Source: Caldilinea sp. CFX5 (lineage in GTDB: Bacteria; Chloroflexota; Anaerolineae; Caldilineales; Caldilineaceae). Taken from it: a DNA stretch of 64,000 bases. Below, piece after piece: positions 15,757-41,862 of the stretch. The notes under the pieces were generated by a model that worked only from the letters and a program-made list of their open reading frames with translations, did no database searches and was not told where the DNA came from. How positions within the stretch are numbered: the stretch's first letter is position 1; every line of letters begins with the position of its first letter. Position numbers and translations under genes: made by a program. The DNA is taken from positions 1 to 64,000 of the forward strand of contig QWII01000054.1 of assembly GCA_021405325.1 (NCBI GenBank), in the 5' to 3' direction.

Positions 15757-18384
15757 TTACTGAGTCGAGTTCGCACAGTGGTGATAAGCTATGGCTTGTT
15801 GGGGTCTGTCAAACTGTCCCAGCGCAAAGGCGACCGCTTGGTCAATGGTCATGGCATAGCCTTCGGCATAGGCGCGGGTATAGGTGGTTTCGTCCAGGTG
15901 GGCGCGAGCGGCGGCGGTGAGTTGTTCATAAGACGATCGTTCGTGAAGTGGTAAAGACACAGGAAGCATTGCCCGCAAACTAGCTGCCGCACCCAATAGT
16001 CTGATTGCGCTTGCCTCATCATCGCCGGCGTGGGCGACACGCGCCAGATTTGCCAATTCATTGGCAATCTCCACTCGATCCAGCAATTGATGGGCGATCT
16101 GCAAGCTTTGACGATAGCTTTGACCGGCGCGCACAAAATCAGCTTGTGCAAAGGCCAAATCGCCTTGCAGGGTGAGTACGCTCGCCGTGCGTGGTGGATA
16201 ATCAAGTGCTTGAGCCAGCTTCAAACTTTGGGTAAGATAATGGGCCGCCCGTTCCATTTGACCTTGGCGAAGCATGATACTACCTAGTTGGTTCAGCGCC
16301 TGCATCACGCCTTCTTGATCGCCCAACTCCTGCGTGAGCGCCAACATTTCCTCGCAATAGGCGAATGCGCGCTGATACTCTCCTTTCAGCAAGGCCAGAC
16401 GCGCCATATTGGGCAAGACCTCAGCAATCCATAACTTATTTCCGCTTGCGCGATACCCTGCCATCCCTAGCTCGTAGTGCATGCTGGCTTGTACGTAGTC
16501 TCCTTGATTCATAGCAAGATTGCCCAAGCCAGAGCGGACCGCCGCCATTCGCGCTGGGTCTCCCAGCAGATCAAACAGCTTGAAACTTTGTTCATAGAAA
16601 AACTGAGCTTGCGCGTAGAGGTGCTGCTTACGGAAAATGCCGCCCAACTGCATAGATTTCTCGGCAACATTGCGCTGATCATTGAGGGTCTGATAGATCG
16701 TCAAACTCTCTTCAACCAATCTTTGCGCCTGTGGATGATTCCCCAGTATGTGTTCCATCAGGCCATTGGCGCTCAGTGCTTTTGCCCGCACAAGCGGCGG
16801 TGCATTCGCGCCGGCGGCAAGCGCCCTTTCTATCCACAACTTCCCTTCATGCAGATGCCCACGCCTATCCCAAAAGAACCCTAATGCTCCACAGAGACGC
16901 AAGGCAGTGGTCATATCACCCGTTGCCAGTGTCCAGGTGAGCGCGCTACGGATGTTGTTATGTTCAGTGTCCAGGTAGGCCAGCCACTTTGCCGCTTGCG
17001 CTTCCCATAACTTCGGTTCCACCCGCTCGACAACTTGCAAATAATAGCTGGCATGGTGCTGCTGTGCCGCCGTATCTGCAGCGTGGGCTTGCAATTGTTC
17101 ACGGGCATATTCACGCATCATCTCCAACAGCAGAAAGCGTCGTTCCACCTCGCCACCTGAAGCAATAACAAGGCTGGCTGTCACCTGCACCAGGCTTTTG
17201 CTGACCAAGCCCTGTAAAGTCTCGGCATCAAAACCAAAGTACGTTACGGCCGCGAGGTCAAAGCCATCCACAAAAACGCCTAACGTCCGAAACAGGACGC
17301 GTTCGCCTTCCGTCAACAACGCATAGCTCGTTTGAATGGCGTGACGCAACGTGCGCTGGTGTTCCGGTGCGTCTTGGGCACTATGCGTTAGTAGATCAAG
17401 CCCATGCCCTCGCAAGCGGGTGAGCATCTGGTGCGGCGCAAACAAATCAATACGCGCCGCAATCAGTTCAATCGCTAGTGGCAAACAGTCAAGCCGCTGG
17501 CAAAGCTTTTCCAAAGTGGGGTGATTTTCCGAGGTGAGATCAAAAGATGGATCAACCATCTGTGCCCGCTGCACAAACAGGGCAACCGCAAACGCCAAAT
17601 CGAGCGGCTGCACAGGAAAACGCTGCTCTGCCCGCAAATGCAACCGTTCGCGACTGGTGACCAGCAGGGATAAACGAGGACATTCCGCTAAGACAGTTGC
17701 CAGCAGCGGGGCAGCCGCAACGATCTGCTCAAAATTATCCAGCACTAACAGCAGTTCTTGCCGGCGTAAGCCCTGAATCAAGCGTTCCTGCGGGGATTGC
17801 TTGCCGGTGTCGAGCAGCTTGAGTGCATTGGCAATTGTGGTGGCGACAAGTTCAGGATCACTAATCGCCGCCAACGGCACAAAGCGCGCGCCATCCTTGA
17901 ACAAGGCTTCCAACTGACCGGCGACCGCCAACGCTAACCGCGTCTTGCCGACACCGGGCGGCCCCGTGAGGGTGAGGAGACGACCGCTGTGTCCCTGCAA
18001 GCGGTTACAGAGCGTTTTGATCGCCTGCTCCCGGCCAATCAATTCACTGGGAGGAGCAGGCAGGTGGCTGGATGGCAGGACGAAGGTTTCGCTAACAACC
18101 AGGTGGGTGGTGCGTTGCACCGTCAGCGTGGCGGGTGGTTGTTCCCCGCGCGCCAGCGCCGCCAACTCGACCAAACGGGCGGACAAGGTCGCTTCATCCT
18201 GTAAGCCTAAGGCCGGGATGAACTGCTGCAGCACGACGGCAACCGTGGGCAAGCGGCGGTTTTGTTCCAGATCACAGACAAAGGACACACTGTAGCCCAC
18301 CGCGGCGGCGAGATCGCCTTGGGTCATACCGGCGCGTTTACGGACTTGCCGAAGAAAAGCGCCAAAGGTCGTGAGGGGTGTCAT
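15757..18384 (-). CDS. Regulator A: XRE-HTH/NB-ARC/TPR STAND protein
   Basis: 875 residues. Residues 5-60 form an XRE helix-turn-helix (MTQGDLAAAVGYSVSFVCDL). The NB-ARC ATPase follows with Walker A GPPGVGKT (141-148), Walker B LLLVLDN (211-217), sensor TSRERLHLRAEQR and the GLPL-like CLPLAIEL (300-307). From about 480 to 860 there are TPR repeats (ANGLMEHILGN, GLGNLAMNQGDY, NQLGSIMLRQGQ). Such STAND proteins switch from an ADP-bound closed form to an ATP-bound oligomer when the repeats sense a ligand; here the oligomer would change DNA binding. The gene diverges from the small protein at 18505 and faces its conserved promoter. Its NB-ARC is nearest to that of regulator E. Confidence 0.88.
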   Translation of the reverse strand: MTPLTTFGAFLRQVRKRAGMTQGDLAAAVGYSVSFVCDLEQNRRLPTVAVVLQQFIPALGLQDEATLSARLVELAALARGEQPPATLTVQRTTHLVVSETFVLPSSHLPAPPSELIGREQAIKTLCNRLQGHSGRLLTLTGPPGVGKTRLALAVAGQLEALFKDGARFVPLAAISDPELVATTIANALKLLDTGKQSPQERLIQGLRRQELLLVLDNFEQIVAAAPLLATVLAECPRLSLLVTSRERLHLRAEQRFPVQPLDLAFAVALFVQRAQMVDPSFDLTSENHPTLEKLCQRLDCLPLAIELIAARIDLFAPHQMLTRLRGHGLDLLTHSAQDAPEHQRTLRHAIQTSYALLTEGERVLFRTLGVFVDGFDLAAVTYFGFDAETLQGLVSKSLVQVTASLVIASGGEVERRFLLLEMMREYAREQLQAHAADTAAQQHHASYYLQVVERVEPKLWEAQAAKWLAYLDTEHNNIRSALTWTLATGDMTTALRLCGALGFFWDRRGHLHEGKLWIERALAAGANAPPLVRAKALSANGLMEHILGNHPQAQRLVEESLTIYQTLNDQRNVAEKSMQLGGIFRKQHLYAQAQFFYEQSFKLFDLLGDPARMAAVRSGLGNLAMNQGDYVQASMHYELGMAGYRASGNKLWIAEVLPNMARLALLKGEYQRAFAYCEEMLALTQELGDQEGVMQALNQLGSIMLRQGQMERAAHYLTQSLKLAQALDYPPRTASVLTLQGDLAFAQADFVRAGQSYRQSLQIAHQLLDRVEIANELANLARVAHAGDDEASAIRLLGAAASLRAMLPVSLPLHERSSYEQLTAAARAHLDETTYTRAYAEGYAMTIDQAVAFALGQFDRPQQAIAYHHCANSTQ

Positions 18385-18444
18385 GGTTTGCTCCCGGCTG
18401 CTGCGTCAACAACAACACCGACAAACAAACAAAAGCGGAAATTC

Positions 18445-18504
18445 TGCGTACTTTTTGCGTAAAAAAGCCTTCCATCGCCGCCGTGACCGCTGTATGCTCT
18501 GCCT
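18445..18504 (+). promoter_or_regulatory. Conserved repeat promoter, locus A
   Basis: Direct repeats TGCGTA at 18445 and 18456 (11-bp period). The -35 box TTCCAT is at 18470-18475, the spacer is 17 bp, and the -10 TATGCT is at 18493-18498. The second repeat starts exactly 14 bp before the -35, as in loci B, C and E. The predicted transcription start coincides with ATG 18505. Confidence 0.75.
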
Positions 18505-18717
18505 ATGCAGCCCATCATTCACCGCACGATCACGATTACAATTACGGAAAGCTGGACGATCACCTGGCCGGACGGTCAAACAACTACCTGGCAGACGAGC
18601 GAAAAGGTGGTGTGGCCGGATGAAAGTGTAGCAGTGGAACCACCACCACGGCTGACCGCTACGGATGACGACGGGCTTGATGATCAGGCCGTGGAACCGA
18701 CGGAACCCGCTGCCTAA
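18505..18717 (+). CDS. Small 'TITIT-W' protein, leaderless
   Basis: 70 residues, no family recognised. The N-terminal half alternates Thr/Ile and Trp in a beta-strand pattern (RTITITITESWTITW, TTTWQTSEKVVW). The C-terminal part is acidic and proline-rich (EPPP, DDDGLDD). There is no signal peptide and no Shine-Dalgarno sequence: the ATG is 12 bases after the first base of the -10 box, exactly as for the paralogue at 30303, so the mRNA should be leaderless. It is the first gene of the transcript that goes on to the lipoprotein at 18891 (173 bases on). A role as a sensor or partner of the divergent regulator is inference. Confidence 0.65.
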   Translation: MQPIIHRTITITITESWTITWPDGQTTTWQTSEKVVWPDESVAVEPPPRLTATDDDGLDDQAVEPTEPAA

Positions 18718-18890: not shown

Positions 18891-21163
18891 ATGAATTTGA
18901 TCAATCGTTCTGCTTCAATGGCTCGTACACCGAAGCAGCGCCTTGAGCGCACTTGGCTATGGCGCTGCCTGGCGCTCATCCTGCTGCTGGCGGGCTGTAT
19001 GCCAATCCAGCCCGCCGCGGCGCCCAACCCCATCACCCTGCGCTTTGCCATCGCCGCTGGTCAGGGTTCGCCACGGATCGATCTGTATGTCCAAGAGTTT
19101 GTGACACAAGTTCACACCCTTTCGCAGGGCAACATCACCCTTGAACCGGTCTGGGACGCGGGGGCGGATGCCCCGGATGGTTTGTTCGAGGCGAAGGCAA
19201 TCCAACGTGTGCAACAAGGGGAATTTGAGTTGGGATGGCGCCTTCGCGTGCCTTTGATATCCAACAGATCACCAGCTTTCAACCGCTGCAGACGCCGTTC
19301 TTGATTACGAATGATGCCTTGGCAGAGGCCGTGGCTACCAGTGACATTGCCACCAAGATGCTGGATCATTTATCGGTTGCAGACATGGTCGGGCTGACCA
19401 TGTGGCCCGAAGACCTGCGTCACCCCTTCTCCATTGTGGCCGATAAGCCCCTTCTATCGCTCCAGGATTTTGCAGGCATGAATATCCGCACGCCACGCTC
19501 CGCTTTGGCGTATCAGATCATCAGCGCGCTGGGCGGCACCCCCATGTTTGCAGACAGCGGCTATGAAATCGCCGAATCGGGGTTACAGCAAGGGGGGACG
19601 TTGACCGGCAGCCCCATCGCCACCGGCAACGTGACTTTCTATCCCAAATATGAAGTCCTCTTTGCCAACGGTGCGGCCTTTGCGCGACTCAACGATCAAC
19701 AGCGCACGATCCTGCGCCAGGCGGCCGCCGCGACGCAAAAGAAAGCCCTTGCCAACCGCCCCAAGGAAGTGGATGCGGCGGCCGCCTATTGTGCGGATGG
19801 CGGCAGCATTGTCCTCGCCAGTGATGAGCAAGTCAAAGCCCTTGAACAGGCTGTGCAACCCGTTTTTGCCAAGCTTGAGCAAGAGCCACTCAGCGCCCAA
19901 TTCATCCAGGCGATTCGTGACCTGAAAGCCAAAGTCACGCCCGCACCTGGTGCATCGGCGTGTGGATCGCAGGCCGCCCAGCAAAATCCGGCCCCGGCTG
20001 CCAACAATCAAGTTTGGTCAAAAGATTTACCGCCCAATGGCGCTTGGCGGGTAGAATTGACCACCGAGGACTTGGTGGGAATGGGCTTGTTGAAATCTGC
20101 AGCAATCGAATGGTCTGGCGTGTATACCTGGACATTCCAAGATGGCCAAGCTGAAAATGATGTGCAAGGACCAACAGCAAAAGTCTACTGTAAGGCGACT
20201 GCCAAAGTGGTCGGGGATGCCGTACGCCTTCATTTGCTCATGGGTTCTAACGGCTGTGATGGTAATGCCTATGATGATGTGCAGTGGCGACTCGATGCAG
20301 ATGGTCTCCACTTCCACCATGTTGGTAGTAATCTCGGTCAATCGCTAGAGTTAAAGGCCATGTATGAGACCAAGCCCTGGAAGAAGGTGGAAGTGTGGTC
20401 ACCAGGCTTACCGCCCAACGGAGTTTGGCAAGTTACACAAACCGTTGATGACTTGGTGAAGATGGGTTTATTGCGCTCTTTGGCACAAAGCGACTTTGCT
20501 GGCGTAACTACCCTGACCTTCAAAGATGGCCAATCGTTGGAGGTCTGGCAAGGTGCGCAAGGGAAAACTGGCAAATGTCAGGCGAACTATGAAGTGGTTG
20601 GCGATGTGGTGCGCTTCACGTATTTCGGCAGCCCTGATGAATGTCCAAATCGGGTTGATGAGATGCAGTGGCGGCTCGATGACCAAGGTCTTCCTCATCT
20701 CCACCTTGTTTCAACCAAAAATGCTCCATTCATTGAGATCAGAGCCTATCTCGAGGCAAAGCCCTGGCAGCAGGTGGAAACGTGGTCCCCCGGTCTGCCG
20801 CCCAATGGAGTTTGGCAATATACGTTGACGGTCGATGAATTAGTGCAGGCGGGGATGTTACGCTCGGCTACGCCTGATTGGGCTGGTTTGTATACCTTCA
20901 CATTCCAAGATGGCAAATTCATGCTGGTATGGCTAGGTGAGCAAGGGCAAAAGGGCGAGTGCGGCGGCACCTACGCCGTGGTCGATAATTTTGTGCGGAT
21001 GACCCGTACGCCGATTACGGCAGACTGCCCGCGTGAAGTGGATGACATCCAATGGCGGCTCGACAAGGATGGGCTGCATGTTCATCTGCTTGCCACGCCA
21101 TATGGTCAACTTCTAGAGGGTCAGATGATGTTTGATACGAAACCCTGGCAGAAGGTTAAATAG
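18891..21163 (+). pseudogene. DctP-like lipoprotein with three C-terminal repeats, frameshifted
   Basis: Start at ATG 18891 with AAAAGGAGA. The lipobox LLAGC is at about residue 32. Residues 40-115 and the second frame (FDIQQITSFQPLQTPFLITN, then LADLSVADMVGLTMWP-like stretches) match DctP solute receptors of TRAP transporters, which bind carboxylates. The frame shifts near 19236: FELGW must be joined to APSRAFD, which needs one extra base. After the receptor domain come three repeats of about 120 residues, beginning VWSKDLPPNGAWRV, VWSPGLPPNGVWQV and TWSPGLPPNGVWQY. No TRAP membrane genes are nearby, so it may be a surface binding protein rather than a transporter part. The frameshift may be real or a sequencing error. 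Confidence 0.72.
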
Positions 21164-23084: not shown

Positions 23085-25808
23085 TCAACCTACGGTCTTT
23101 TCGACAGCAATTGGTGATAGAATCGTCGCAAACGCCGCTTCCAACGTCATCTGCTGCCCCGCGGTGAACGCTTCAGCAAAGACCACTGGCGCCAACGCCG
23201 CCCGCACTGTTGCCAGCGCAGTCTCAGCTAGATTGCCAATTGGTCCGCCAATGACATGGTGGATCTGGCCATGGCGTGTTTCGGCCAGCCCAAAGAGGGT
23301 GGCAGCCCGTTGGTATTGCTGTTGCGCAGTGGCGAGACGGGCCGCCACCCAAAGCCGTGCGATTTCATACGGTGAGACTTTGGGTGGGTTGTTGAAGTAG
23401 GCCAGACTTTGCCCTAACCACTTTTCAGCCTCTTGGGTGTCGCCCTCCCACAGTGCGAGATCAGCGAGAAAGGTACAGACGCGCGCCAAGAGTCCTTTGT
23501 CTTTCAGTTCAACACCCAAAGACAAGCTCTCTGTCAAGAATTGGTGTGCGGCTAATCGTTCACCTTGATATAACACCACAACGCCTAACAACGACTGCCA
23601 GATGACCAGCATTTCTGTGTGCTGAAAGGTTCTGGCCGTCGTGACCACTTCGTGCAAGTGCGTGTGCGCCTGCGCCAGATCACCTTGTAACAAGGCGATT
23701 AGCCCTAAGACACCAAGTTCACCAGCGACCGCGTATTGGTTGCCGCAACGGCGATAGATTTCCAAACTTTCTAACGTGAAGGGCAACGCCTGCGCGATCT
23801 CGCCACGCTCGATCAAGGTCGTAGCATAATCCTCTAGGCAAGAGCCAAGTACAAAGTCCCGATCCGCCGTCGCACCATAGATAGAGGATAAATCCGCCTC
23901 AGTGTAAGCCGCGCGCGCCGCCACAATCGCTTTCTCCCAGAACGGGACAGCTTGGGTAAAATCATCGCTAAAGGCAGCCACAAAATACCAAGTAGCCGCC
24001 TGCAAGATTTTGACCGAGCAGCTCTCCGCCACTTGGAGCATCTCTTGCGTCCAGCGCTCGCGCGGGCGGAACGCTTCGATGACGCGCGCATTGTTATAAA
24101 CGCCATGCAGAATCATTAAGCGTAATTCAGCGGGTAACAGGTGCCGATAGGGTAGCAAATTCGCTTCCCACTTGCCATCCTCAAGCCAATTGCCGCGCAT
24201 GTGCCAAAACCAGCCGACGGCCATCATCAGCCAGACGACCTGCTCATACTCTCCTACCTTAAAAGCCCATTCTAGGGCTGAACGGATGTTATCTTGGTCA
24301 AGTTCAAGACGTATTGCCCAAGTTGCTGCCTCGGCATGGCGTACGTGGCTATCCGCAATGCGAGCGAAGAGCAAATAGGCTGCATAGTGATGTTGTCGTA
24401 TCGGGGCTTCCTCACCCTTGCTGCGTAACTGTTCTAGCGCAAATTCACGAATTGTCTCCAACAGCAGAAACCGTTGCTCGCCAGTTGTCGTAGTTTCGCT
24501 GCGCACTAAGCTTTTGCCGATGAGCGCATGCAGGGTAGCGATGAGAGAGGGTGAGATTGTGGTGCTATCCAATCGCGAATCTCCAATCGCTGATCGCCCC
24601 GTCATCACCGCCGCCATCTCTGGTAAGGCAAAGCCACCCACAAAAATGCCCAAGCGGCGAAAGAGCGTGCGTTCGGCCTCGTTCAATAATTGATAACTAT
24701 GCTCAATAGCAGCGCGCAAGGTGCGTTGGCGTGGCGGCAGATCGGCGGCGCCCTCGACCAACAGATCGAGGCGATGATCCCTTAAGCGCGCTAGCAATTG
24801 GACCGGCGTCAGCAAATCAATTTGCGCCGCACACAACTCTAGCGCCAGGGGCAGACAGTCCAGCCGCTGACAGATAGCGGCAATGGTGGGTTGGTTGGCG
24901 GGTGTGAGGCGGAAGTCAGCCGCTACGGCCTGCGCACGCTGCACAAAGAGCTCGACCGCCGCTGCCAGATCGAGCGGCGGCACCGGATAGCGTTGCTCGG
25001 CGCGCAGGTGGAGCCGTTCGCGGCTGGTGACGAGAATACGCAGATTGCCACATTCGGCCAGCAGTTCGGCGATTAACCGCACCCCCGACCCCACCCCCTG
25101 CCCCTCCCGTTCGGCTGAGCTCACGTCGAAGCCTGATAAAGGAGGGGAGAGGAGCTGCTCGAAATTGTCTAAGATCAACAAGAGTTCTTTGCGGCGCAGG
25201 TGGGCGATCAGGCGGCTTTGTGGTGAGCGAGTAGTGTCGTCCTGTAACTGTAGGGCGCTTACGAGCGTGGCCGCCACCAGGGTGGGGTTGGTGATGGCAG
25301 CCAAGGCGACAAAACAGGCGCCATCTTTGTAGCTGCTTTGCAGGGCGGCGCCCACCGCCAGCGCCAATGTCGTCTTGCCCACGCCCGGCGGCCCGATCAG
25401 CGTCAACAAGCGCCCCTGGTGGCCCAACAGGCGGTTGCAGAGGTGATTGATCTCCTGGTCGCGCCCCAGCAGGGCGGTTGGCGGGAAGGGCATGCGGTAG
25501 GCGGACGCTTCTTCTGTATGGGTGACCACCGACCGACGTTCAGGCTTGACGTTCAGGCCCGGAGGCGAACGTTGGCCGCGCGCATGGGCCGCCAATTCGA
25601 CCAGTTGGACCGCCAGGTGCGGATCTTCCTGGAGCGCCAACGCCGGTAGATAGCTTTGCATCACCGCGTCGAGGTCCGGCAACCGCTGGTCACGTTCCAG
25701 CGCGCAAATCAAGGCGCGACTGTAGCCCGTGGCCGCCGCCAGATCATCTTGGGTCATGCCCACCCGTTTGCGCAGTTGTTTGAGGAGAACGCCAAAGGTT
25801 GCCGCCAT
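23085..25808 (-). CDS. Regulator B: XRE-HTH/NB-ARC/TPR STAND protein
   Basis: About 907 residues from ATG 25808 (MAATFGVLLKQLRKRVGMTQ), with GGAAGGGAGC before it; longer forms would cross the conserved promoter. XRE HTH, then NB-ARC with Walker A GPPGVGKT, Walker B LLLILDNFEQ, TSRERLHLRAEQR and CLPLALEL. A short insertion (after LLSPPLSGFD) follows Walker B and is absent from the paralogues. TPR-type helices make up the rest. The TPR half resembles that of regulator C (GGFALPEMAAVM, LLETIREFALEQ, MAVGWFWHMRG). Only about 20 bp separate its start from the operator repeats, so binding there could also block its own expression. Confidence 0.88.
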   Translation of the reverse strand: MAATFGVLLKQLRKRVGMTQDDLAAATGYSRALICALERDQRLPDLDAVMQSYLPALALQEDPHLAVQLVELAAHARGQRSPPGLNVKPERRSVVTHTEEASAYRMPFPPTALLGRDQEINHLCNRLLGHQGRLLTLIGPPGVGKTTLALAVGAALQSSYKDGACFVALAAITNPTLVAATLVSALQLQDDTTRSPQSRLIAHLRRKELLLILDNFEQLLSPPLSGFDVSSAEREGQGVGSGVRLIAELLAECGNLRILVTSRERLHLRAEQRYPVPPLDLAAAVELFVQRAQAVAADFRLTPANQPTIAAICQRLDCLPLALELCAAQIDLLTPVQLLARLRDHRLDLLVEGAADLPPRQRTLRAAIEHSYQLLNEAERTLFRRLGIFVGGFALPEMAAVMTGRSAIGDSRLDSTTISPSLIATLHALIGKSLVRSETTTTGEQRFLLLETIREFALEQLRSKGEEAPIRQHHYAAYLLFARIADSHVRHAEAATWAIRLELDQDNIRSALEWAFKVGEYEQVVWLMMAVGWFWHMRGNWLEDGKWEANLLPYRHLLPAELRLMILHGVYNNARVIEAFRPRERWTQEMLQVAESCSVKILQAATWYFVAAFSDDFTQAVPFWEKAIVAARAAYTEADLSSIYGATADRDFVLGSCLEDYATTLIERGEIAQALPFTLESLEIYRRCGNQYAVAGELGVLGLIALLQGDLAQAHTHLHEVVTTARTFQHTEMLVIWQSLLGVVVLYQGERLAAHQFLTESLSLGVELKDKGLLARVCTFLADLALWEGDTQEAEKWLGQSLAYFNNPPKVSPYEIARLWVAARLATAQQQYQRAATLFGLAETRHGQIHHVIGGPIGNLAETALATVRAALAPVVFAEAFTAGQQMTLEAAFATILSPIAVEKTVG

Positions 25809-25828: not shown

Positions 25829-25890
25829 TTGTAGCATTTTTGTAGCAAAATCGCTTCCATCTCGCCCGCCCAGCCGGTATAGTGTCAGAG
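25829..25890 (+). promoter_or_regulatory. Conserved repeat promoter, locus B
   Basis: Direct repeats TGTAGC at 25830 and 25841, -35 TTCCAT at 25855-25860, a 17-bp spacer and -10 TATAGT at 25878-25883. Spacing is identical to loci A, C and E. No ATG stands at the predicted start, so the downstream lipoprotein mRNA would have a leader of about 175 bases that contains the 22-bp hairpin at 25930-25988. Confidence 0.72.
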
Positions 25891-26064: not shown

Positions 26065-26640
26065 ATGGAACGCATGAACCGGAATCTCTCACCGTTGCTG
26101 TTGCCACAGCGCCTGTCACGCACATTGCGACTGACGTTGCTGATAATGGCAGTCCTAAGCCTGGCTGCCTGCCAGCCCATCCAACGCTTGCCAGAAATGA
26201 AAACGGCCGTTGCGGCGGCGGCAGTAACGCCGCTTGAACAGGCCAACAAGGCCGTCGTCCAGCGCTTTTACGAAGAAGTGGTCAATCAAAAAAAGCTAGA
26301 GGTCTTCCAAGAAGTCTTTGACCCCAAGATGACGCCCCACGAATTAGGCTATGGCCCCCAGTTGTTTCGTGACGTAGAGCTGCTCGCTGGCTTCCCCGAT
26401 CAACACCTCACGGTCGATCTCTGGATGGTCAAGGATGACATGGTGGCGGCGGTCGTGACTGTCAGCGGAACGCACACAGCAGAGTTTATGGGCATTGCGC
26501 CCACCGGTAACAAAATGAGCTTTTCCCAGATCGACATCTGGCGGGTCAAGAATGGCAAGATCACCGATGTCTGGCACAACTTCGCCAGCGCCGACATCTT
26601 GCAGCAGGTTGGCTATACGCTGGCGCCGCCGGCGAAGTGA
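26065..26640 (+). CDS. SnoaL-like lipoprotein
   Basis: 191 residues with AAGGAGCG before the ATG. A signal peptide with lipobox LAAC (Cys at about residue 36) predicts a membrane-anchored exported protein. Residues 60-190 form a SnoaL/NTF2-like alpha+beta cone (NKAVVQRFYEEVVNQKKLEV, VSGTHTAEFMGIAPTG, FSQIDIWRVKNGKITDVW). In this family the cone is used by polyketide cyclases and many binding proteins; the exported form here has no known substrate. It is nearly the same as the last domain of the protein at 30666. It is driven by the conserved locus B promoter. Confidence 0.82.
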   Translation: MERMNRNLSPLLLPQRLSRTLRLTLLIMAVLSLAACQPIQRLPEMKTAVAAAAVTPLEQANKAVVQRFYEEVVNQKKLEVFQEVFDPKMTPHELGYGPQLFRDVELLAGFPDQHLTVDLWMVKDDMVAAVVTVSGTHTAEFMGIAPTGNKMSFSQIDIWRVKNGKITDVWHNFASADILQQVGYTLAPPAK

Positions 26641-26653
26641 AGCGATTGAAGAA

Positions 26654-30231: not shown

Positions 30232-30302
30232 TCCAGAATGTTTGTAGAATTTTTGTAGAATTTTCGCTTCTATCAACGCCCCGCCGCCGCTATGCTGACG
30301 CT
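30232..30302 (+). promoter_or_regulatory. Conserved repeat promoter, locus C
   Basis: Repeats TGTAGAAT at 30243 and 30254, with a degenerate third copy TCCAGAAT at 30232, all at 11-bp period. The -35 TTCTAT is at 30268-30273, the spacer is 17 bp, and the -10 TATGCT is at 30291-30296. ATG 30303 falls at the expected transcription start. Confidence 0.78.
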
Positions 30303-30665: not shown

Positions 30666-32147
30666 ATGAAAAACCGCTGGTTTTTTGGACGACTGTTGAC
30701 GTTGGTATTGCTGTTCAGTTTGAGTATGGCAAGCTGTATCCAACCCATGCCAGCCGCCTCCAGGCAGGCGCTTAAGCCGGGTGACAAGATCGGAACGATG
30801 GCTCTTGTGCAAGGCCCGCCGACGTTTGACATGATGGCGATCCCACCGTGGCCGGCCTTTTGCAATTCGAATCCTGATCCGACGATGAAGCCAGGTGACA
30901 CCGAAATGAAACCCGGTGTCTACACGGTTGAATGCACCATGCCACCGTTACCGAAATTTCATATCGGTAGTGGTTTCGTCTTCGCCGACGAAAAACTGCG
31001 TGACGCCGATTGGAGCGCAGTGCATGAGGAGCTATCTGTCAACGGGCACCTCATCGATCAGGCGGCGTTTGGCAGCGTCGATGCCGATATTCCGAGTCAG
31101 CCTCCGGCTCAGTCGCAGCCAGCGAAAGCTGCCAGCCAAGCGCCTACCCTGAAATTGCGCGTTTGGAATGTGGTATTGGAAAACCTGACCCCAGGGTCAC
31201 TGACGCTGCACGAAGTGCTACGAGTTGATAAGCCGTTCCTAGATCTCTTCAGCTCGGCAACGATAGTCGCCGGCGTCTACGATCTCACCTACAAGATCAC
31301 CGTTAGCGCTGACGATCAAAGCAAGGCAGCAACGCTGACTGAGCAGGAAGCCGCCAACCAGGCCGTCATTCAACGCTTCTATGACGAGGTCATCAACCAG
31401 AAAAAGTTTGACCTCTTCGCCGAAATTTTCGACCCGCAGTCGGTCACGCACGACTTGGGCATGAAGCCCGATATCAACATGCTTTTCACGGCCTTTCCCG
31501 ATCTCCACGTCACCGCCGACCAGTGGATGCTCAAGGGCGACATGGTCACCAGCATCGCCACGTTCACGGGGACGCAGGAGGCTGAGTTTATGGGCGTGGC
31601 AGCCACCCATAAGCCAGTGACCTGGAGCCATATCGACGTCCATCGCATTAAGGACGGCAAGATTGTCGAAGTCTGGCACAATATCCCGTTCGCCGATATC
31701 CTGCAGCAAATTCAGGGCGACGCAACGGGGGAAACCGCCGCCGAGGCCGCCAACAAGGCAGTCGTCCAAAAGTTTTATGACGAGGTAGTCAACAAGAAGA
31801 ACCTGGACGCCTTCCAAGAAGTCTTTGACCCCAAGATGACCGAACACGCCTTGGGCTATGGCTCATCACCGTTCCGTGACACAGATCTGCTGGCCGGCTT
31901 CCCCGATCTCCAACTCAAAGTAGACCTCTGGCTGGTCAAAGGCGACCTGGTGACTGCCGTTGTCACCGCCAGCGGGACGCAGACCGGCGAGTTTATGGGC
32001 CTTGCGCCCACGGGGAAGAAGATGACCTTTTCGCAGATCGACATCTGGCGCGTGCAGAATGGCAAGATCACCGATGTGTGGCACAACTTTGCCAGCACCG
32101 ACATTTTGCAGCAAGTGGGCTATCAATTGACGCCGCCCACGAAGTGA
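30666..32147 (+). CDS. Lipoprotein with two SnoaL-like domains
   Basis: 493 residues with AAGGAGAA before the ATG. Signal peptide with lipobox MASC (Cys at about residue 23). Residues 30-210 are a domain not recognised. It is followed by two SnoaL/NTF2-like cones at about 225-350 (NQAVIQRFYDEVINQKKFDL) and 362-490 (NKAVVQKFYDEVVNKKNLDA). The second is almost the same as the single domain of the protein at 26065, so loci B and C share a duplicated target. Exported and membrane-anchored; ligand unknown. A short hairpin (ACGGGGTGC arms, 32156-32196) follows the stop. Confidence 0.82.
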   Translation: MKNRWFFGRLLTLVLLFSLSMASCIQPMPAASRQALKPGDKIGTMALVQGPPTFDMMAIPPWPAFCNSNPDPTMKPGDTEMKPGVYTVECTMPPLPKFHIGSGFVFADEKLRDADWSAVHEELSVNGHLIDQAAFGSVDADIPSQPPAQSQPAKAASQAPTLKLRVWNVVLENLTPGSLTLHEVLRVDKPFLDLFSSATIVAGVYDLTYKITVSADDQSKAATLTEQEAANQAVIQRFYDEVINQKKFDLFAEIFDPQSVTHDLGMKPDINMLFTAFPDLHVTADQWMLKGDMVTSIATFTGTQEAEFMGVAATHKPVTWSHIDVHRIKDGKIVEVWHNIPFADILQQIQGDATGETAAEAANKAVVQKFYDEVVNKKNLDAFQEVFDPKMTEHALGYGSSPFRDTDLLAGFPDLQLKVDLWLVKGDLVTAVVTASGTQTGEFMGLAPTGKKMTFSQIDIWRVQNGKITDVWHNFASTDILQQVGYQLTPPTK

Positions 32148-33538: not shown

Positions 33539-36124
33539 TCACAAGGATGCGACGTATCCAGGTACAGGAAGAGGCGAGGCATAGTGCAGCGCCTCTTCCA
33601 ACGGCAGTGCCTGCCCTTCCGTCCAGGCGGTGGTAAAAGCCATTTCGCCAAGTTGCGCGCGGGCATTGTCAATCAAGCTGTCATATTCGTCACGATCGCG
33701 CGGGGCCAAGAATGGCAGCAGACCAGCAAAAAGCTGTTGCGCCATGCCGGCTAATCTGGCGGTGCGCGCCAGGTCACCGCGTGCTTGCGCCACCCAGGCT
33801 AGACCAACCAGGGCGCGCCCAAACAACCGCTTGTACTGCTTTTTCCAGGACAGCGCCAGGCTTTTGCCGTAATACGTGGTGGCCTGTTCAAGATTCCGGC
33901 GTACACAGCGTTCAATCTGTCCGAAGTCATACCATACGTTGATGATGCCGAGTTCAATCTCGTTCTCCTGGAAAAATTGCAACGCCTCGGTCAGATAGGT
34001 GCAAGCAGCATCCTCCTGCCCCATGCGCCAAACAACATTCGCTAGCTCTTCCAACGTGTTAGCAATTTGCCATCGGGTGCTCAGGGGCCGCACGAGTTCC
34101 ATTGCTTCGGTGAGGAGGGCAGCGGCCTGGGCATAGTCGCCAACCAGCAAAGACAAGCGCGCTTCGACTCTTAACGCATAGGCCAGACCAGGCGGGCGGT
34201 CACGCTGACGATACAAGGTTTTACCCTCTTGCAATAGCGCGCTGATCCGTGGCTGTGGCCCGCCCAGCCGGATCAACATGTTGGCGATGTTGACACAGGC
34301 AAAGGCCACCAGCCCCAACTGTCCGGCCTGCCGCGCCAGTGGCAGACTGCGCTCAAAATGACGCAACGCTTGTTCGGGTTGCTCCATCTCCGCCAACGCC
34401 CAGCCACTGACATACAACGTGCTGGCACAACCGGTGGGATTGTTCTGCGCGGCAAAGAGGGCCAGGCTTTCTTGCGCCAATGCCAATGCGATCTGGTTAT
34501 CATTTTGATCCTGAGCCAGGGCAGCGGCGGCTTGCAGCGCTAGCGCACGACTGGGCGTTGGTTCGGCGCTGGCGGCCAATGCCTTTGCCAGCCACGCGCG
34601 CCCTTCGGCAAAGCGACCTACACCGGACCAAAAACCAGAGAGTTGACCAGCCATCTGTTGCCCCACCACCGGTTGGGACTGAACCAGCCACTCCATAGCA
34701 GCGTAGAGATTGGCATGTTCCCAGGTCAACCGCGCCAGCCACGGCTTTTCCGTGCGACCGCCAAAGTGTGACACGGCCTCCTCGCTCAGTTTGAGAAAAT
34801 AGTAGGCGTGTTGCTCACGCACGCGTGCCAATTCATTGATGGCGACCAGTTGTTCCTGGGCATAATCACGGATGGTTTCGAGATAAAGAAAACGGCGTTC
34901 AGGCGCTTCATAATTTTCGATGCTCACCAGGCTCTTATTGACCAATGCCTGCAAGGTCGCTTCGGCAAAGCCCAGTGCCCTCACCCCCGCTAAATCAAAG
35001 CCACCCACAAAGGCGCCAAGCGCCCGAAAGAGCGCTTGTTCTTGTCTATCGAGAAGGATATAGCTGCGATGGATGGCCTGACGCAGCGTCTGCTGGTGAG
35101 CAGGCAGATCACGCAGACCGTTGGTGAGCAGATCCAGCCGGCGGTCTTGCAGACGGGCAAGGAGGACAGGAAGCGAAAAGAGATCAACCTGCACTGCGCT
35201 CAACTCTAGCGCCAGGGGTAGGCAGTCAAGCCGCTGACAGATGGCGGCGATGATGGGCTGGTTTTCCGGCGTGAGGACAAACGCAGGGTCAACGGCCTGG
35301 GCGCGCTGGGTAAAAAGTTCACAGGCCGCAGCAACGCTTAATGGCGGGACGGGATAGCGCTGCTCGGCACGCAAATGGAGCCGTTCACGGCTGGTAGCCA
35401 GGATACACACACCTGGGCATTCGGTCAGTAGCTCGGCGATAAGGGGAGCGGCCTCACGAATTTGTTCGAGATTATCCAGCACCAGCAACATGGTTTTGCG
35501 GCGTAGAAATTCAATCAGCCTGGTCTTTGGCGGCTTGGGACTGGCATCACTATTGCCCACTGCGCCCAGGATCGCTGAGATCATCAACGTTGGTTCGCTG
35601 ATGGCGGCTAAGGGAACAAAAGTAGCGTCATGCGGATAGTGGTATTGGACCTGCGCGGCCACGGCCAGCGCCAGCGTCGTCTTGCCGATGCCGGGTGGGC
35701 CGACCAGCGTCAATAGCCGGCCGCCGTGGCCGAGCAAGCGGTCACAAAGATGCTGAAGCTGGGTAGTGCGGCCAATCAAGGCGGTGGGTAGGCTAGGTAA
35801 ACGCCCGGGCGACTCGACAACTTCCTCATGAATCACCACTTGGGCGGCGCGTTGGATGGTGACGGCGGTTGGCGGGCGTTCACCGCGAGCGGCGGCGGCC
35901 AGTTCTACTAGCCGCGTCGCCAACTGGGGTGCATCCGCCAGCGCTAGGGCGGGGACAAGGGTCTGGACAACAAATTCAACCGCGGGCAGACGCCGTTCCT
36001 GTTCCAGCGCCGAGATAGCAGCAGCGCTATAGCCGACGGCGGCGGCCAAGTCGCCCTGCGTCATGCCGACGCGTTTGTGCAGCGTGCGCAACAATGTGCC
36101 AAAGCTGGGTGAGGTGGTGGACAT
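33539..36124 (-). CDS. Regulator D: XRE-HTH/NB-ARC/TPR STAND protein without a target
   Basis: About 861 residues from ATG 36124 (GAGGGAAACCCT before it). XRE HTH, NB-ARC with GPPGIGKT, MLLVLDNLEQ, TSRERLHLRAEQR, CLPLALEL, then TPR-type helices (DYAQAAALLTEAMELVRP, GQEDAACTYLTEALQFFQ). The first 150 residues are almost the same as in regulator E, and the NB-ARC is nearest to C. Its own TATAAT (36190-36195) is kept, but the repeat promoter of the other loci is absent: similarity ends near 36218. The adjacent DNA holds no divergent gene, so D may act on the promoters of its relatives. Confidence 0.88.
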   Translation of the reverse strand: MSTTSPSFGTLLRTLHKRVGMTQGDLAAAVGYSAAAISALEQERRLPAVEFVVQTLVPALALADAPQLATRLVELAAAARGERPPTAVTIQRAAQVVIHEEVVESPGRLPSLPTALIGRTTQLQHLCDRLLGHGGRLLTLVGPPGIGKTTLALAVAAQVQYHYPHDATFVPLAAISEPTLMISAILGAVGNSDASPKPPKTRLIEFLRRKTMLLVLDNLEQIREAAPLIAELLTECPGVCILATSRERLHLRAEQRYPVPPLSVAAACELFTQRAQAVDPAFVLTPENQPIIAAICQRLDCLPLALELSAVQVDLFSLPVLLARLQDRRLDLLTNGLRDLPAHQQTLRQAIHRSYILLDRQEQALFRALGAFVGGFDLAGVRALGFAEATLQALVNKSLVSIENYEAPERRFLYLETIRDYAQEQLVAINELARVREQHAYYFLKLSEEAVSHFGGRTEKPWLARLTWEHANLYAAMEWLVQSQPVVGQQMAGQLSGFWSGVGRFAEGRAWLAKALAASAEPTPSRALALQAAAALAQDQNDNQIALALAQESLALFAAQNNPTGCASTLYVSGWALAEMEQPEQALRHFERSLPLARQAGQLGLVAFACVNIANMLIRLGGPQPRISALLQEGKTLYRQRDRPPGLAYALRVEARLSLLVGDYAQAAALLTEAMELVRPLSTRWQIANTLEELANVVWRMGQEDAACTYLTEALQFFQENEIELGIINVWYDFGQIERCVRRNLEQATTYYGKSLALSWKKQYKRLFGRALVGLAWVAQARGDLARTARLAGMAQQLFAGLLPFLAPRDRDEYDSLIDNARAQLGEMAFTTAWTEGQALPLEEALHYASPLPVPGYVASL

Positions 36125-37478: not shown

Positions 37479-40241
37479 TTACAACAAATGATGATCGGCG
37501 GCGAAGCGGATGGCCGACTCGCGGCCATTGACGCCGAGTTTGCTGTAGATGGCCGTGACGTGGGCATTGACGGTGCGGCGACTGATGATCAGCTTTTCAG
37601 CGATCTGCGGGTAGGTCAAGCGCTGGGTCAAAAGCCGCAGTACCTCAACTTCACGCGCCGTGAGGTTGGCCGGGTGTAGCTTTGGTTGGGATGGGCGCGG
37701 AGCAGGCGTGGCGACATCCGGCGCAGGGGATAACCACGGGGGGCGATCCAATGGCACTGACGCACCGGGTAGGGTGGCGGCATGGGTGACGGCTTCCGCC
37801 AATGTCCAACCCTGCCCTTCGCTCCAGAGAGCGGCAAAGGTGGTCTGGGGGCTGTCACGGCGTAAGGTGTCCAGCATGGTCTGCAATTTCTCGCTGGCTG
37901 TGGCAACGAGGAACGGCGGTTGGTTGTCGAGAATTTTCTGCACCACACTACACAGCCGTGTGGCGTCGTCAAACGCCTGATCGGCAAACGCCACCTCGGC
38001 CACAGCCAGTAGATAGCGCGCGGCCATCGCAAACCCGTACCATACTTCCTGGAGCATGGCCTTGTCGTCGGCTGCCTGGAAGAACTGGCGGGCTTCTTCC
38101 CAATAGGTGCAAGCCGCCGCCCGCTTCCCGGCGAACCAATGGGCGCCGCCCAATACGGTTTGCACATAGGCGACATCCAGGCGCGAACCCATAGCGCGGT
38201 CGATCGCCAACGCCTCCTGGCAAAGCGCGATCCCCTGGCTGTAATCGCCTGTGCGGACGTGCGTCCGCCCTTTGGCGAAGTAGGTATAGGCCAATCCCTG
38301 CCAATCATCTAGTTCTTCATAAATCTGGGCGCTTTCGGCCAAGAGCGGCAAAATCTGCGCTGGGGATCGTCCTAGCGCCAGATAGCCATCGCCCACACCC
38401 ACCAGGCCATGCGCCAAACAATGGGGATCGCCAATGTCACGGGCTAAGGCCAGACTTTGTTCTAGATAGGGTAACGCCTGGGCCGGCTGGTCGAGGTTGA
38501 TCAGGATATAGCCCAGCAAACTCAACGCCTCGCAGCAGCCCACGGCATCAGCGTGGGCTTGAAAGATTTGCAGGCATTCTTGGGCCAGCGCCTGGGCTTG
38601 CACCTGATCGGTGATGAGCGCCTGCGCCCAGAGCGCCCAGGCGCGTTGCGGCGTCGGTCTGGTGTCGGCGGCCAACGCCTTGCTCAACCAGTCGCACCCT
38701 TCGTGCAGGAGCGCCTTCGCCTCCCAAAAGCGCCAGAGCCAGCGCGCCATCTCTTGCGCAGCCGGTGGGTCGGTGGCAATCAGCCACGCTAGCGCCGCCC
38801 GCAGGTTCCCGTAGTCAGCTTGCAGGCGCTCCAGCCAGGGCAGTTTTTGGCGGCGATCCATGTATTGGGCTGCTGTGGCGGCCAGATTGAGAAAATAGTC
38901 GGCATGGCGGCGCTGCACCAATGGCGCTTCATTGGCGCTATGCAGTTCTTCCAGTGCATATTCACGAACCATTTCCAGCAGGGCGAAGCGCTGTTCTGCA
39001 ACCTGGTGGGGGGCAGTCGTTGTCGGTTGAACCGCCACATGCATGAGGCTTTTCGTCATCAACCCATGCAATTCCGCAACGCCAAAGCCGACATGCGCCA
39101 CTGCGGCCAGGTCAAAGCCATCCACAAAGACGCCTGACGTACGAAAGAAAACGCGTTCATGTTCTGCCAACAACGCATAGCTGGCTTGAATCGCCCGGCG
39201 GAGCGTGCGCTGATGCAGCGGTGCATCTTGGGCATTGTCCGTCAGGAGTTCAAGCGCGTGCGTTTGCAAGTGAGCCAACATCTGTTGGGGTGAAAAGAGA
39301 TCAATGCGCGCGGCGCTCAATTCCAATGCCAACGGTAGACAATCGAGCCGGCGGCAAATTTTTTCAATCGTCAGTTGATTTTCGGGTGTCAGGGCAAAGG
39401 TTGCCGCCACCATCTGCGCTCGTTGCACAAAGAGGGTCACAGCCGCAGTCAGGTCGAGGGGTGGCACCACAAAGCGTTGCTCGGCCCGTAAATGCAGCCG
39501 CTCCCGGCTCGTGACCAGCAAAGCCAGGCGCGGGCATTCAGCCAACAGGGTTGCCAACAATGGGGCCGCTGCCACGATCTGCTCAAAATTATCTAGCACT
39601 AACAGCAATTCTTGGCGTCGCAAGCCGCGCACTAAGCGCTCTTCCGGTGATTGCCTGCCGACATCAAGCAGCTTGAGTTCATTGGCAATTGTCGTGGCGA
39701 CGAGCGCGGGATCCGTGATCGCCGCCAGCGCAATAAACCGAACCCCGTCTTTAAAGTGTAGTTCCAACCGGCTTGCCACGGCCAGCGCCAGCGTGGTCTT
39801 GCCGATACCCGGCGGCCCCATCAGTGTCAACAACCGACCGCCGTGGCCAAGCAAGCGGTCACAAAGCTGCTGAACCTGGGCGGTGCGACCAATCAAGGCG
39901 GTGGGTAGGCTGGGTAAGCGCCCTGGCGACTCGACCACTTCTTCCTGAATCACTACTTGGGCGGTGCGTTGGATGGTGACGGCGGTTGGCGGGCGTTCAC
40001 CGCGAGCGGCGGCGGCCAGTTCTACTAGCTGCTTTGCCAACTGGGGTGTATCCGTCAGTGCCAAGGCGGGGACAAGGGTCTGGACAACAAATTCGACCGC
40101 GGGCAGACGCCGTTCCTGTTCCAGCGCCGAGATGGCGGCAACGCTATAACCGACGGCGGCAGCCAGATCGCCTTGGGTCATGCCGACGCGTTTGCGTAAG
40201 GTACGCAACAACGTGCCAAAGCTGGGTGAGGTGGTGGACAT
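37479..40241 (-). CDS. Regulator E: XRE-HTH/NB-ARC/TPR/LuxR-HTH protein
   Basis: About 920 residues from ATG 40241. N-terminal XRE HTH almost the same as in D. NB-ARC (GPPGIGKT, LLLVLDNFEQ, TSRERLHLRAEQR, CLPLALEL) nearest to that of A. TPR-like helices follow. A LuxR/GerE HTH occupies the last 65 residues (LTAREVEVLRLLTQRLTYPQ, IAEKLIISRRTVNAHVTAIY), which none of the other four copies has. Two different DNA-binding domains at opposite ends of one STAND ATPase is an uncommon layout and would allow looping or bridging between sites. It diverges from the membrane protein at 40582. Confidence 0.9.
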   Translation of the reverse strand: MSTTSPSFGTLLRTLRKRVGMTQGDLAAAVGYSVAAISALEQERRLPAVEFVVQTLVPALALTDTPQLAKQLVELAAAARGERPPTAVTIQRTAQVVIQEEVVESPGRLPSLPTALIGRTAQVQQLCDRLLGHGGRLLTLMGPPGIGKTTLALAVASRLELHFKDGVRFIALAAITDPALVATTIANELKLLDVGRQSPEERLVRGLRRQELLLVLDNFEQIVAAAPLLATLLAECPRLALLVTSRERLHLRAEQRFVVPPLDLTAAVTLFVQRAQMVAATFALTPENQLTIEKICRRLDCLPLALELSAARIDLFSPQQMLAHLQTHALELLTDNAQDAPLHQRTLRRAIQASYALLAEHERVFFRTSGVFVDGFDLAAVAHVGFGVAELHGLMTKSLMHVAVQPTTTAPHQVAEQRFALLEMVREYALEELHSANEAPLVQRRHADYFLNLAATAAQYMDRRQKLPWLERLQADYGNLRAALAWLIATDPPAAQEMARWLWRFWEAKALLHEGCDWLSKALAADTRPTPQRAWALWAQALITDQVQAQALAQECLQIFQAHADAVGCCEALSLLGYILINLDQPAQALPYLEQSLALARDIGDPHCLAHGLVGVGDGYLALGRSPAQILPLLAESAQIYEELDDWQGLAYTYFAKGRTHVRTGDYSQGIALCQEALAIDRAMGSRLDVAYVQTVLGGAHWFAGKRAAACTYWEEARQFFQAADDKAMLQEVWYGFAMAARYLLAVAEVAFADQAFDDATRLCSVVQKILDNQPPFLVATASEKLQTMLDTLRRDSPQTTFAALWSEGQGWTLAEAVTHAATLPGASVPLDRPPWLSPAPDVATPAPRPSQPKLHPANLTAREVEVLRLLTQRLTYPQIAEKLIISRRTVNAHVTAIYSKLGVNGRESAIRFAADHHLL

Positions 40242-40468: not shown

Positions 40469-40540
40469 TGTAGAATTTTTGTAGAATTTGTGTAGAGTTT
40501 TCGCTTCTATGAACACCGCAACGCCGCTATGCTATAGGCC
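40469..40540 (+). promoter_or_regulatory. Conserved repeat promoter, locus E
   Basis: Three TGTAGA repeats at 40469, 40480 and 40491 (11-bp period). The -35 TTCTAT is at 40505-40510, the spacer is 17 bp, and the -10 TATGCT is at 40528-40533. The last repeat again starts 14 bp before the -35. The predicted leader is about 42 bases, unlike the leaderless loci A and C. Confidence 0.78.
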
Positions 40541-40581
40541 ACAGGCATCCGTGTCAGGAATGGCAAATCTGAGGTGATCCT

Positions 40582-41862
40582 ATGCGTAAGCAAACCCCGA
40601 AGTTGGAATGGCACATTGTCGAGAATGATGAAGAATGGGAACGGCAGCAAGCCCAACACGCAGCGGTAGCGGCGCCGTGGCGTGGTCGTCTGTATATACA
40701 ACGGTACGCCGGGAACGTGTTTACGCTGTTGCTGCTGTTGGTGATGATCGGCGCCTGGTGGCGCACATCCCAAACCGACAAGGCGCAAAGGGCAGCGGCA
40801 GCAAGCGTGACCACGCCAGCCGCGCCAGATGCGATTGCACCTGGCCCCAGTAGCGTCATGGATGTTATTGATTCTAGTCAAGGCAACAGTGCAATGCTAC
40901 CGTCAACAGAGGGTGTTATCGGCCAACAGAGCGCCCAGCGTCTGGCAACGCCCTACTTTGTCTATTATTTTGGTCAGCAAGATGCGGCGGCGGTCCGGGC
41001 CGTCGCGCCGCAAATGGATAAGCTATACATCACGCTATGGCGTCATTTGGGCCTGCCGATCAGCCCGCTACCAAAGAGGCTGGTCATTGCGGTCAGTGGG
41101 GTACAACGACCAGGACAAAGCGCGCCCGCCTTCGATACACAACAACACATTACAGTGCCTTCGCCAATGCTTTATCCGGCGCCAGTAAAAATGAATAATA
41201 CTGAGTTGTTGGCGCAGTCCATTGCACTGCCCTTGCTCCAGGCGATGATAGCGCAAGCCAATAGACGCTACCGCATCAAAGCTGCCTGGCAACCCCTGTT
41301 GAATGGCCTCTATTTATGGCAACTGTGGGACACCGATCTACCCTTGGCGGCCTGGCGGGAAGAGGTGGTAAAGTGGCAGTATATTGACTTGCCGGCCACC
41401 AACCCCGGACAAGCCATTGCGCTGCCGCAGCACTACCAGGAACTCTGCGCCGACCACAAGCTTTGGCTCCAGCCACTGGGACGGATACATTTCCCACTAC
41501 TATGCGCAGGGCAGGAATGGGAAGATCGGAACTGGGAGGCGTGGCGAACAGGTGCGCCATTAACCTATTTGGAACAACTGGCTGTACCCTCTGCTCTGAC
41601 TTCGGGCGGGTGGGCGCCTTCTATAGTTGGGCCGGCATCCTTTTTCAATCATCCAGGGCAGACAGTGGCGCTCGCTACCCTTACCGGGTATGCCGTGTCC
41701 ACCTACGGACGTTATCGTCTACCCGCGCTGCTGGCCGGCTTAGGTCAGTATGACGATTGGGATACGCTGCTGCCCGCGGTCTTTGATGTATCCGCCCCTG
41801 CGTTCGAAGCGGGTTGGCAAAGGTATCTGGCGGACCACTATGGCGTCGTCGCGCCAAAGTAG
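40582..41862 (+). CDS. Single-pass membrane protein, target of locus E
   Basis: 426 residues with GAGGTGATCCT before the ATG. A charged cytosolic N-terminus (LEWHIVENDEEWERQQ) is followed by one membrane helix (about 50-66, VFTLLLLLVMIGAWW) and an outside domain. Residues 120-250 resemble the start of peptidase-MA-like domains (YFVYYFGQQDAAAVRAVAPQ, then LPKRLVIAVSG), but no HExxH is present, so catalysis is unlikely. Function unknown. It is transcribed from the conserved repeat promoter opposite regulator E, which suggests it is the regulator's main target or signal partner. Confidence 0.7.
   Translation: MRKQTPKLEWHIVENDEEWERQQAQHAAVAAPWRGRLYIQRYAGNVFTLLLLLVMIGAWWRTSQTDKAQRAAAASVTTPAAPDAIAPGPSSVMDVIDSSQGNSAMLPSTEGVIGQQSAQRLATPYFVYYFGQQDAAAVRAVAPQMDKLYITLWRHLGLPISPLPKRLVIAVSGVQRPGQSAPAFDTQQHITVPSPMLYPAPVKMNNTELLAQSIALPLLQAMIAQANRRYRIKAAWQPLLNGLYLWQLWDTDLPLAAWREEVVKWQYIDLPATNPGQAIALPQHYQELCADHKLWLQPLGRIHFPLLCAGQEWEDRNWEAWRTGAPLTYLEQLAVPSALTSGGWAPSIVGPASFFNHPGQTVALATLTGYAVSTYGRYRLPALLAGLGQYDDWDTLLPAVFDVSAPAFEAGWQRYLADHYGVVAPK

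Follow-up and report, generated by a model that had tools for sequence, protein, structure and literature searches.

Tandem 11-bp repeats at divergent promoters of XRE-NB-ARC-TPR regulators in a Caldilinea genome: putative locus-dedicated switches and an associated micro-protein family

What do five paralogous regulator genes, packed into one region of a Caldilinea genome, control, and how would each of them find its own target? The region lies in the window, i.e., the whole 64-kb stretch of DNA analysed here (Caldilinea sp. CFX5, Chloroflexota; contig QWII01000054.1, positions 1 to 64,000), in which all five genes are carried on the minus strand and encode XRE-NB-ARC-TPR proteins of 861-920 residues (aa), called R1 to R5. 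STAND ATPases are ligand-triggered switches, and the reading preferred here, with a probability of roughly 70%, is that each module would be a one-component, locus-dedicated switch in which a STAND activator acts on tandem repeats of the divergent promoter. The regulator genes are as follows.

15757..18384, minus strand: R1, XRE-NB-ARC-TPR regulator, 875 aa (Pfam); operator triplet CGT, recognition residue D
23085..25808, minus strand: R2, XRE-NB-ARC-TPR regulator, 907 aa (Pfam)
27459..30128, minus strand: R3, XRE-NB-ARC-TPR regulator, 889 aa (Pfam)
33539..36124, minus strand: R4, XRE-NB-ARC-TPR paralogue without repeat array (Pfam; array score p 0.62)
37479..40241, minus strand: R5, XRE-NB-ARC-TPR-LuxR regulator (Pfam); XRE part and operator R3-like, ATPase part R1-like

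A sequence-only reading made earlier had placed five such genes at these positions, had four of them (R1, R2, R3, and R5) face divergent genes starting at 18505/18891, 26065, 30303/30666, and 40582, and had proposed one stereotyped promoter for the facing genes; all three statements stand. Each protein has Pfam matches to HTH_31/HTH_3 at the N-terminus (the XRE part), to NB-ARC/NACHT/AAA_22, and to TPR, which is the make-up of a STAND regulator: an NB-ARC/NACHT nucleoside triphosphatase (NTPase) core with a P-loop, a DNA-binding domain, and a repeat sensor. The XRE profile matches chains of the 434 repressor, Cro, C.BclI, and HipB, as expected of an XRE helix-turn-helix (HTH). R5 carries an extra C-terminal LuxR (GerE) HTH that the earlier reading had not mentioned.

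The promoters facing R1, R2, R3, and R5 share one order: two to three heptamers, N4, a CGCTTCY-like stretch, and then TATGCT or TATAGT. The heptamer unit is TGNNNAA-like and is repeated directly, in tandem, with an 11-bp period. At R1 and R3 the first divergent gene encodes a short protein of a family here called TITIT.

18445..18462, plus strand: R1 operator, TGCGTAC and TGCGTAA, 11 bp apart; array score p 0.010
18493..18498, plus strand: R1-side -10 hexamer TATGCT, +37 from the proximal heptamer and 6 nt before the TITIT ATG
25830..25847, plus strand: R2 operator, TGTAGCA twice, 11 bp apart; p 0.010; -10 hexamer TATAGT at 25878-25883
30232..30260, plus strand: R3 operator, TGTAGAA twice and a degenerate TCCAGAA, 11-bp period; p 0.005; -10 hexamer TATGCT at 30291-30296
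40469..40497, plus strand: R5 operator, TGTAGAA, TGTAGAA, and TGTAGAG, 11-bp period; p 0.005; -10 hexamer TATGCT at 40528-40533

The sequence TGTAGAA-N4-TGTAGA occurs three times in the 64 kb, always at R3/R5, and in none of 100 shuffles. For a wider comparison, a profile of the five regulators gave 12 loci in genome contigs, from which three distant loci outside the Chloroflexota (L007, L011, and L012) were left out, and a profile of the XRE and ATPase parts (A4) was searched in 46 Caldilineales genomes, where 15 rows reached at least 482 bits, two more scored 369-370, and the following one 314. The relatives are mostly from Caldilineaceae or Caldilineales; in an even sample of 400 genomes of the phylum, with the best 4 candidates per genome considered, only G007, of the same order, scored above 390 bits (the next scored 386 and 374). 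The core set holds 24 regulators: the five window genes, 17 found in the 46 genomes, one in G004, and one in G005. Upstream of these, period 11 stands out against shuffles (z 8.2; runner-up 2.9 at period 12), and at least 9 of 11 matches at this period were found in 8/24 core regions versus 6/145 control upstream regions (Fisher 9e-5). Taken singly, 15 of the 24 loci have an array score of p 0.035 or better; L032 and L035, with one good unit each, were added by register, and proximal heptamers were placed by hand in the resulting 17 loci. A -10 hexamer of the form TANNNT lies at exactly +37 from the proximal heptamer in 13/17, GATACT or CATACT at +37 in two, and the -10 is at +36 in the remaining two. 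A gene-blind DNA pattern search of the 46 genomes returned three sites, every one at the promoter of a core regulator, and none with the pattern reversed. A chance origin of the promoter is ruled out by the period-11 signal, the control regions, the shuffles, and the gene-blind search, and local control by each regulator appears likely from this arrangement.

The intergenic region is common to both genes, and the arrays could instead serve mainly to autoregulate the STAND gene, with the divergent gene a bystander. A TATAAT-like box is indeed kept on the regulator strand at R3, R4, and R5, but R4 has this box without having an array or a divergent partner, and in 15/17 loci it is on the divergent side that a -10-like hexamer stands at +37 from the array, which makes this explanation very unlikely.

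How a regulator would recognize its own array is suggested by the triplet in the middle of the heptamer. Among 319 variable protein columns, the one holding Ala39 of R3 ranks first in its association with the triplets assigned to these 17 operators (mutual-information score, AMI, 0.731), and the runner-up, column 44 (0.442), lies just behind the recognition helix. The profile match to the 434 repressor (profile positions 9-44 against chain positions 6-42) puts Ala39 at residue 33 if no gap precedes it, a residue that we take to contact bases. Alanine pairs with TAG (R2, R3, R5, and L025), serine with TGT (L032, L033, L035, and L070, plus L009 by eye), asparagine with CAT (L005 and L036), arginine with TCA (L027 and L069), and aspartate with CGT (R1); where the operator is GGG, TGG, or CCG, position 39 holds G, S, or A and an Asp precedes it in the helix. 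Along the DNA, AMI is 0.47-0.78 in the proximal heptamer, 0.27-0.38 in the next heptamer upstream, and at most 0.24 elsewhere (-26 to +31). Without labels, the Ala39 position also ranks first of 142 columns over 48 broader loci and, with near-copies removed, first of 140 columns over 42 separate loci (r 0.303, permutation p 0.001, family-wise 0.021). Mapped on the ATPase-part tree, TAG takes three changes, each accompanied by Ala, and TGT two. The covariation supports recognition of each promoter by its own regulator, and given the array period, the -10 spacing, and the recognition-residue covariation, the repeats are very probably XRE operators.

The proposed mechanism would run as follows. 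XRE heads would bind two to three head-to-tail heptamers, one helical turn (11 bp) apart, in an array that directly precedes the -35 zone of a sigma70-type promoter on the divergent side. Once the TPR sensor, which diverges among regulators, has bound its signal, ATP-dependent oligomerization would most likely follow, a ligand- and ATP-driven multimerization of the kind attributed to the STAND family; heads would then occupy the whole array and bring in RNA polymerase. The message made from this promoter would often be leaderless, with a TITIT beta-hairpin protein as its first open reading frame (ORF), and the output would consist mostly of exported or surface proteins. Comparisons of sequence support the repeat array with its spacing, the distance to the -10, covariation at the recognition residue, and the recurrence of partners; activation rather than repression, oligomerization, ligands, and a role for TITIT are inferred, and each regulator would presumably sense a signal and turn its neighbour on.

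Many well-known XRE proteins are repressors, and the regulator could likewise sit on the repeats of the divergent gene until a ligand releases it. Palindromes, instead of direct repeats, are seen by eye upstream of four relatives outside the core family, as would fit a repressor. In the core set, however, some 30 bp lie between the end of the repeats and the -10, both the -10 and the start site are left uncovered, and CGCTTCY in the -35 zone bears little resemblance to TTGACA, as an activated promoter would show. Helically phased repeats placed shortly before a weak -35 zone, together with a STAND ATPase, point to activation by an oligomer. The nearest solved relative, AfsR of Streptomyces, is described in excerpts of PMC10936776 as a SARP-NOD-TPR activator with two 11-bp direct repeats at the -35 region, and repression is accordingly judged quite unlikely here. 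Among solved chains, that of AfsR matches the ATPase part best (E 2e-14); AfsR also shares the NOD-TPR body and the 11-bp direct repeats, and by this analogy the modules would work like AfsR. Its head is of the OmpR type (SARP), whereas those of R1-R5 are XRE; SARPs combine an OmpR-type domain with a BTA domain, while the N-terminus here is HTH_31/HTH_3. Because of the XRE head, R1-R5 are not SARPs. The direct repeats at the promoter do have the 11- or 22-bp spacing of SARP targets, but their position relative to the -10 differs: the afs box, in the excerpts, overlaps both the -35 and the spacer that leads to the -10, and here the repeats are upstream of the -35 zone.

The divergent partners are listed below.

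18505..18717, plus strand: TITIT micro-protein, 70 aa, predicted beta-hairpin 9-20/26-37 (profile, AlphaFold model, protein-level selection)
18891..21163, plus strand: gene for a TRAP DctP-like lipoprotein, spread over two overlapping frames, 18891-19304 and 19235-21163 (Pfam)
26065..26640, plus strand: SnoaL-domain lipoprotein, 191 aa (PF07366, 2e-27; lipobox)
30303..30635, plus strand: TITIT protein, 110 aa, probably leaderless (sequence, -10 distance)
30666..32147, plus strand: lipoprotein with two SnoaL stretches, 493 aa (PF07366, 9e-54; lipobox)
40582..41862, plus strand: membrane protein (R5 partner), 426 aa, without Pfam match (at least 109 relatives, itself counted)

The sequence-only reading had described these products as lipoproteins, a membrane protein, and two TITIT proteins. 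That description is kept with one correction: what begins at 18891 is the lipoprotein N-terminus of a TRAP/DctP-like protein, and DctP itself is matched in the overlapping ORF 19235-21163, which is in a different frame. The two-frame layout of 18891-21163 reads as a frame break or a sequencing error. The R5 partner family recurs, as P0114, beside a regulator in G043, again as its divergent partner; another relative (P0102) is annotated with PF13485, and a fold search with the R5 partner reached a best E of 0.035 and nothing at E 0.001. For 17 core loci, the first divergent gene other than TITIT was compared with 165 control genes for export segments and lipoboxes. A first, simpler rule found export segments in 8/17 partners and 50/165 controls (p 0.13), and a second rule, drawn up after the first and with partner starts set by hand and control starts automatically, in 13/17 and 62/165 (p 0.002). 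The earlier reading had expected certain neighbour types, including lipoproteins and TITIT, to recur beside related regulators, and in related genomes lipoboxes under the second rule are enriched (5/17 versus 13/165, p 0.016) and TITIT stands beside 7/18 core regulators (the 17 rows of at least 369 bits plus a contig-end fragment, G003:C105). Partners elsewhere include choice-of-anchor Q proteins (L032 and L035), FG-GAP proteins (L005 and L036), lipoproteins without Pfam match (L070 and L073), and proteins with a weak VWA match (L027) or a weak CSLREA match below cut-off (L075). Exceptions to exported partners are a globin (L069, PF00042), a TITIT-lumazine-binding fusion (L025), a TITIT alone (L033), and a locus without clear partner (L076).

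Several points weigh against the activator reading. Nine of the 24 core loci (R4, L067, L068, L071, L072, L077, L078, L032, and L035) fall below array significance, and the strict pattern of the gene-blind search fits just three known arrays, leaving room for looser sites elsewhere. When all DNA offsets were paired with all columns (16588 tests), two neighbouring offsets, 12 and 11, gave column 83 higher values (0.95 and 0.81) than the 0.78 of the recognition position. The triplet pairing was seen by eye before the first, labelled test, the second being the one made without labels, and residue 39 is not a pure one-residue code because it is S in some TGG loci and A in others. Exported partners look enriched, with an outcome that hinges on the rule (p 0.13 or 0.002). 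Additionally, the reading is built on sequence, and the roles given to expression, binding, and ligands are putative.

The regulators themselves have a mosaic make-up: one XRE head is common to R3, R4, and R5 (that of R4 is 89% identical to R3 and 93% to R5), but their TPR parts are only 21-35% alike. The XRE part of R5 is 86% like that of R3 versus 58% like that of R1, while its ATPase part is sister to R1 on the ATPase tree (100/100); judged by these relationships, R5 is a natural domain swap, an R1-like ATPase with the XRE and operator of R3. R1, R3, and R5 form a natural domain-swap series for separating sensor from DNA head. Since R3, R4, and R5 have nearly one DNA head and different sensors, one promoter type may integrate several signals. 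In the window sequence upstream of R4, no repeat array was found and no divergent partner was seen; R4 may serve the R3/R5 promoters in trans.

TITIT is, on the evidence of its alignment, a conserved micro-protein family. A profile built from 19 rows (A5) and searched in the 46 Caldilineales genomes gave 12 matches (E up to 0.0101) and two partial ones with stops (E 0.02-0.05); 10 further rows at E 0.1-1 were treated as chance. M1, E15, W17, and W21 are invariant in the 19 rows, and L009, outside them, is without the first W. Seven of the 12 copies are divergent to a core regulator, one (L029) lies about 4 kb along the divergent gene series of another, and a further regulator-linked copy is present in G005. 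The L031 copy is cut at a contig end and is without clear -10, and no regulator was found within the surrounding DNA examined at L026, L028, and L030. At L026, L028, L029, and L030, a long exported-type protein is next on the same strand (at L029, the only one of the four scanned, with a choice-of-anchor Q domain, NF041518). These four form a second subgroup with an HVIEWDEGE-like ... RADGSGW tail, situated among lipoproteins and long exported proteins, and several of their neighbours end in YLPxVVR or FVPVVVR-like tails. Neither window copy has a Pfam match up to E 0.1, nor was a match found in PADLOC or NCBIfam, and a fold search gave nothing at E 0.001. AlphaFold predicts a two-strand beta-hairpin (mean pLDDT 91 over residues 11-20 and 95 over residues 21-30; pTM 0.37). 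A RiPP-precursor idea was set aside, the HaaT matches of R3 and R5 being weak (48 and 63 bits versus a cut-off of 1125); modifying enzymes were not searched for.

In all 10 regulator-linked copies the TITIT ATG lies 6-7 nt behind the -10-like hexamer, and because of this short distance the TITIT messages beside regulators are probably leaderless. Leaderless genes were reported for 4/12 Chloroflexi genomes, at about 5% of genes (excerpts of PMC3160421). The same fixed distance, together with the copy at L069 that stops after 20 codons, would suit a leader peptide, in which translation at the 5' end, and not the protein, controls the genes behind. This is nonetheless unlikely: the proportion of synonymous differences (pS) exceeds that of non-synonymous ones (pN) across codons 2-21 in 64/66 pairs, which are non-independent, and in 5/6 pairs of internal copies, and the L025 copy is fused to a lumazine-binding/SnoaL-like domain. 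The same protein-level selection rules out a spurious ORF.

An XRE gene adjoining a tiny beta-rich protein also recalls the XRE-DUF397 pairs of Streptomyces (excerpts of PMC6262351 and PMC10364602), and TITIT with its regulator could be a toxin-antitoxin (TA) or anti-phage conflict pair, as was once proposed for those. DUF397 is beta-rich and STAND ATPases are known from conflict systems (excerpts of PMC7159879). Yet PADLOC yields merely generic domain matches (HTH, ATPase, and TPR), which set aside a known defence system, the partners are varied and mostly exported, and 4/12 TITIT copies stand within same-strand series of exported-protein genes. Overexpressed XRE-DUF397 pairs did not act as TA in S. 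coelicolor (excerpts of PMC10364602), and a conflict pair is highly improbable here. The resemblance itself is partial: NB-ARC-TPR does not appear in the excerpted descriptions of XRE-DUF397, and TITIT is a predicted two-strand hairpin, not four strands, and is without the Pfam match that DUF397 membership would give. A more ambitious reading joins the activator model to TITIT. Across the phylum, XRE-STAND proteins would make up a class of self-addressed sensor switches whose TPR sensor can be exchanged and whose ATPase serves as the clutch; their XRE heads would line up head-to-tail on helically phased repeats, and one recognition-helix residue would largely fix the identity of the operator. 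TITIT would be a beta-hairpin protein dedicated to its regulator: expressed once the promoter is activated, it would return to the TPR sensor and act inside the cell as a feedback ligand. As a whole, this combination is tentative and rather unlikely.

Two further regulator families bear comparison. MalT/LAL regulators have a STAND ATPase with a TPR-type sensor, and R5 is like them also in its C-terminal LuxR HTH; R1-R5 differ in their N-terminal XRE head, and an NCBIfam scan found no full-length MalT match, the NF003420 MalT match of R5 being confined to its C-terminal LuxR HTH. We know of no RNPP regulator (e.g., Rgg, PlcR, or ComR) with NB-ARC, whereas R1-R5 have it; RNPP systems pair an HTH-TPR protein lacking an NTPase with an exported pheromone gene, and TITIT is divergent and shows no export signal (no N-terminal signal peptide by eye). 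An N-terminal HTH and a TPR sensor are common to both (excerpts of PMC5131891). The earlier reading had known of no described system with these parts, and the open-licence literature agrees: the exact set was not found there, AfsR being a close functional parallel, nor was a paper found on XRE-NB-ARC-TPR regulators of Chloroflexota, their operators, or their targets.

XRE-STAND genes are common in Chloroflexota, with a match at E 1e-35 in 91/400 sampled genomes (best 8 candidates per genome). From about 150 listed rows, 60 broad regulators were taken in addition to 30 loci, and upstream DNA (n=124) was mostly about 450 bp per locus. Among 29 broad relatives within the order, periods 12 (z 5.1) and 24 (3.9) appear; all 124 give z 14.2 at period 12 and 6.4 at 11, with lesser peaks (e.g., 4.7 at 9 and 4.1 at 22), and at least 9 of 11 matches at period 12 occur in 34/124 versus 12/145 control regions (Fisher 3e-5). 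The tandem-repeat rule and the recognition-residue pairing would allow sequence-based prediction of operators and targets for the whole class, and TITIT adds an unannotated micro-protein family tied to XRE-STAND switches. The palindromes noted by eye upstream of broad XRE-STAND genes read GTATCGC, 3-4 bases, GCGATAC at L082, L087, and L089, and GTATCG, 5 bases, CGATAC at L091. In the window, a gene with AAA-ATPase_like and PDDEXK_9 domains (21245-23038) lies between two modules, and a 1296-aa surface protein with SdrD-B repeats (43251-47141) lies just beyond the region.

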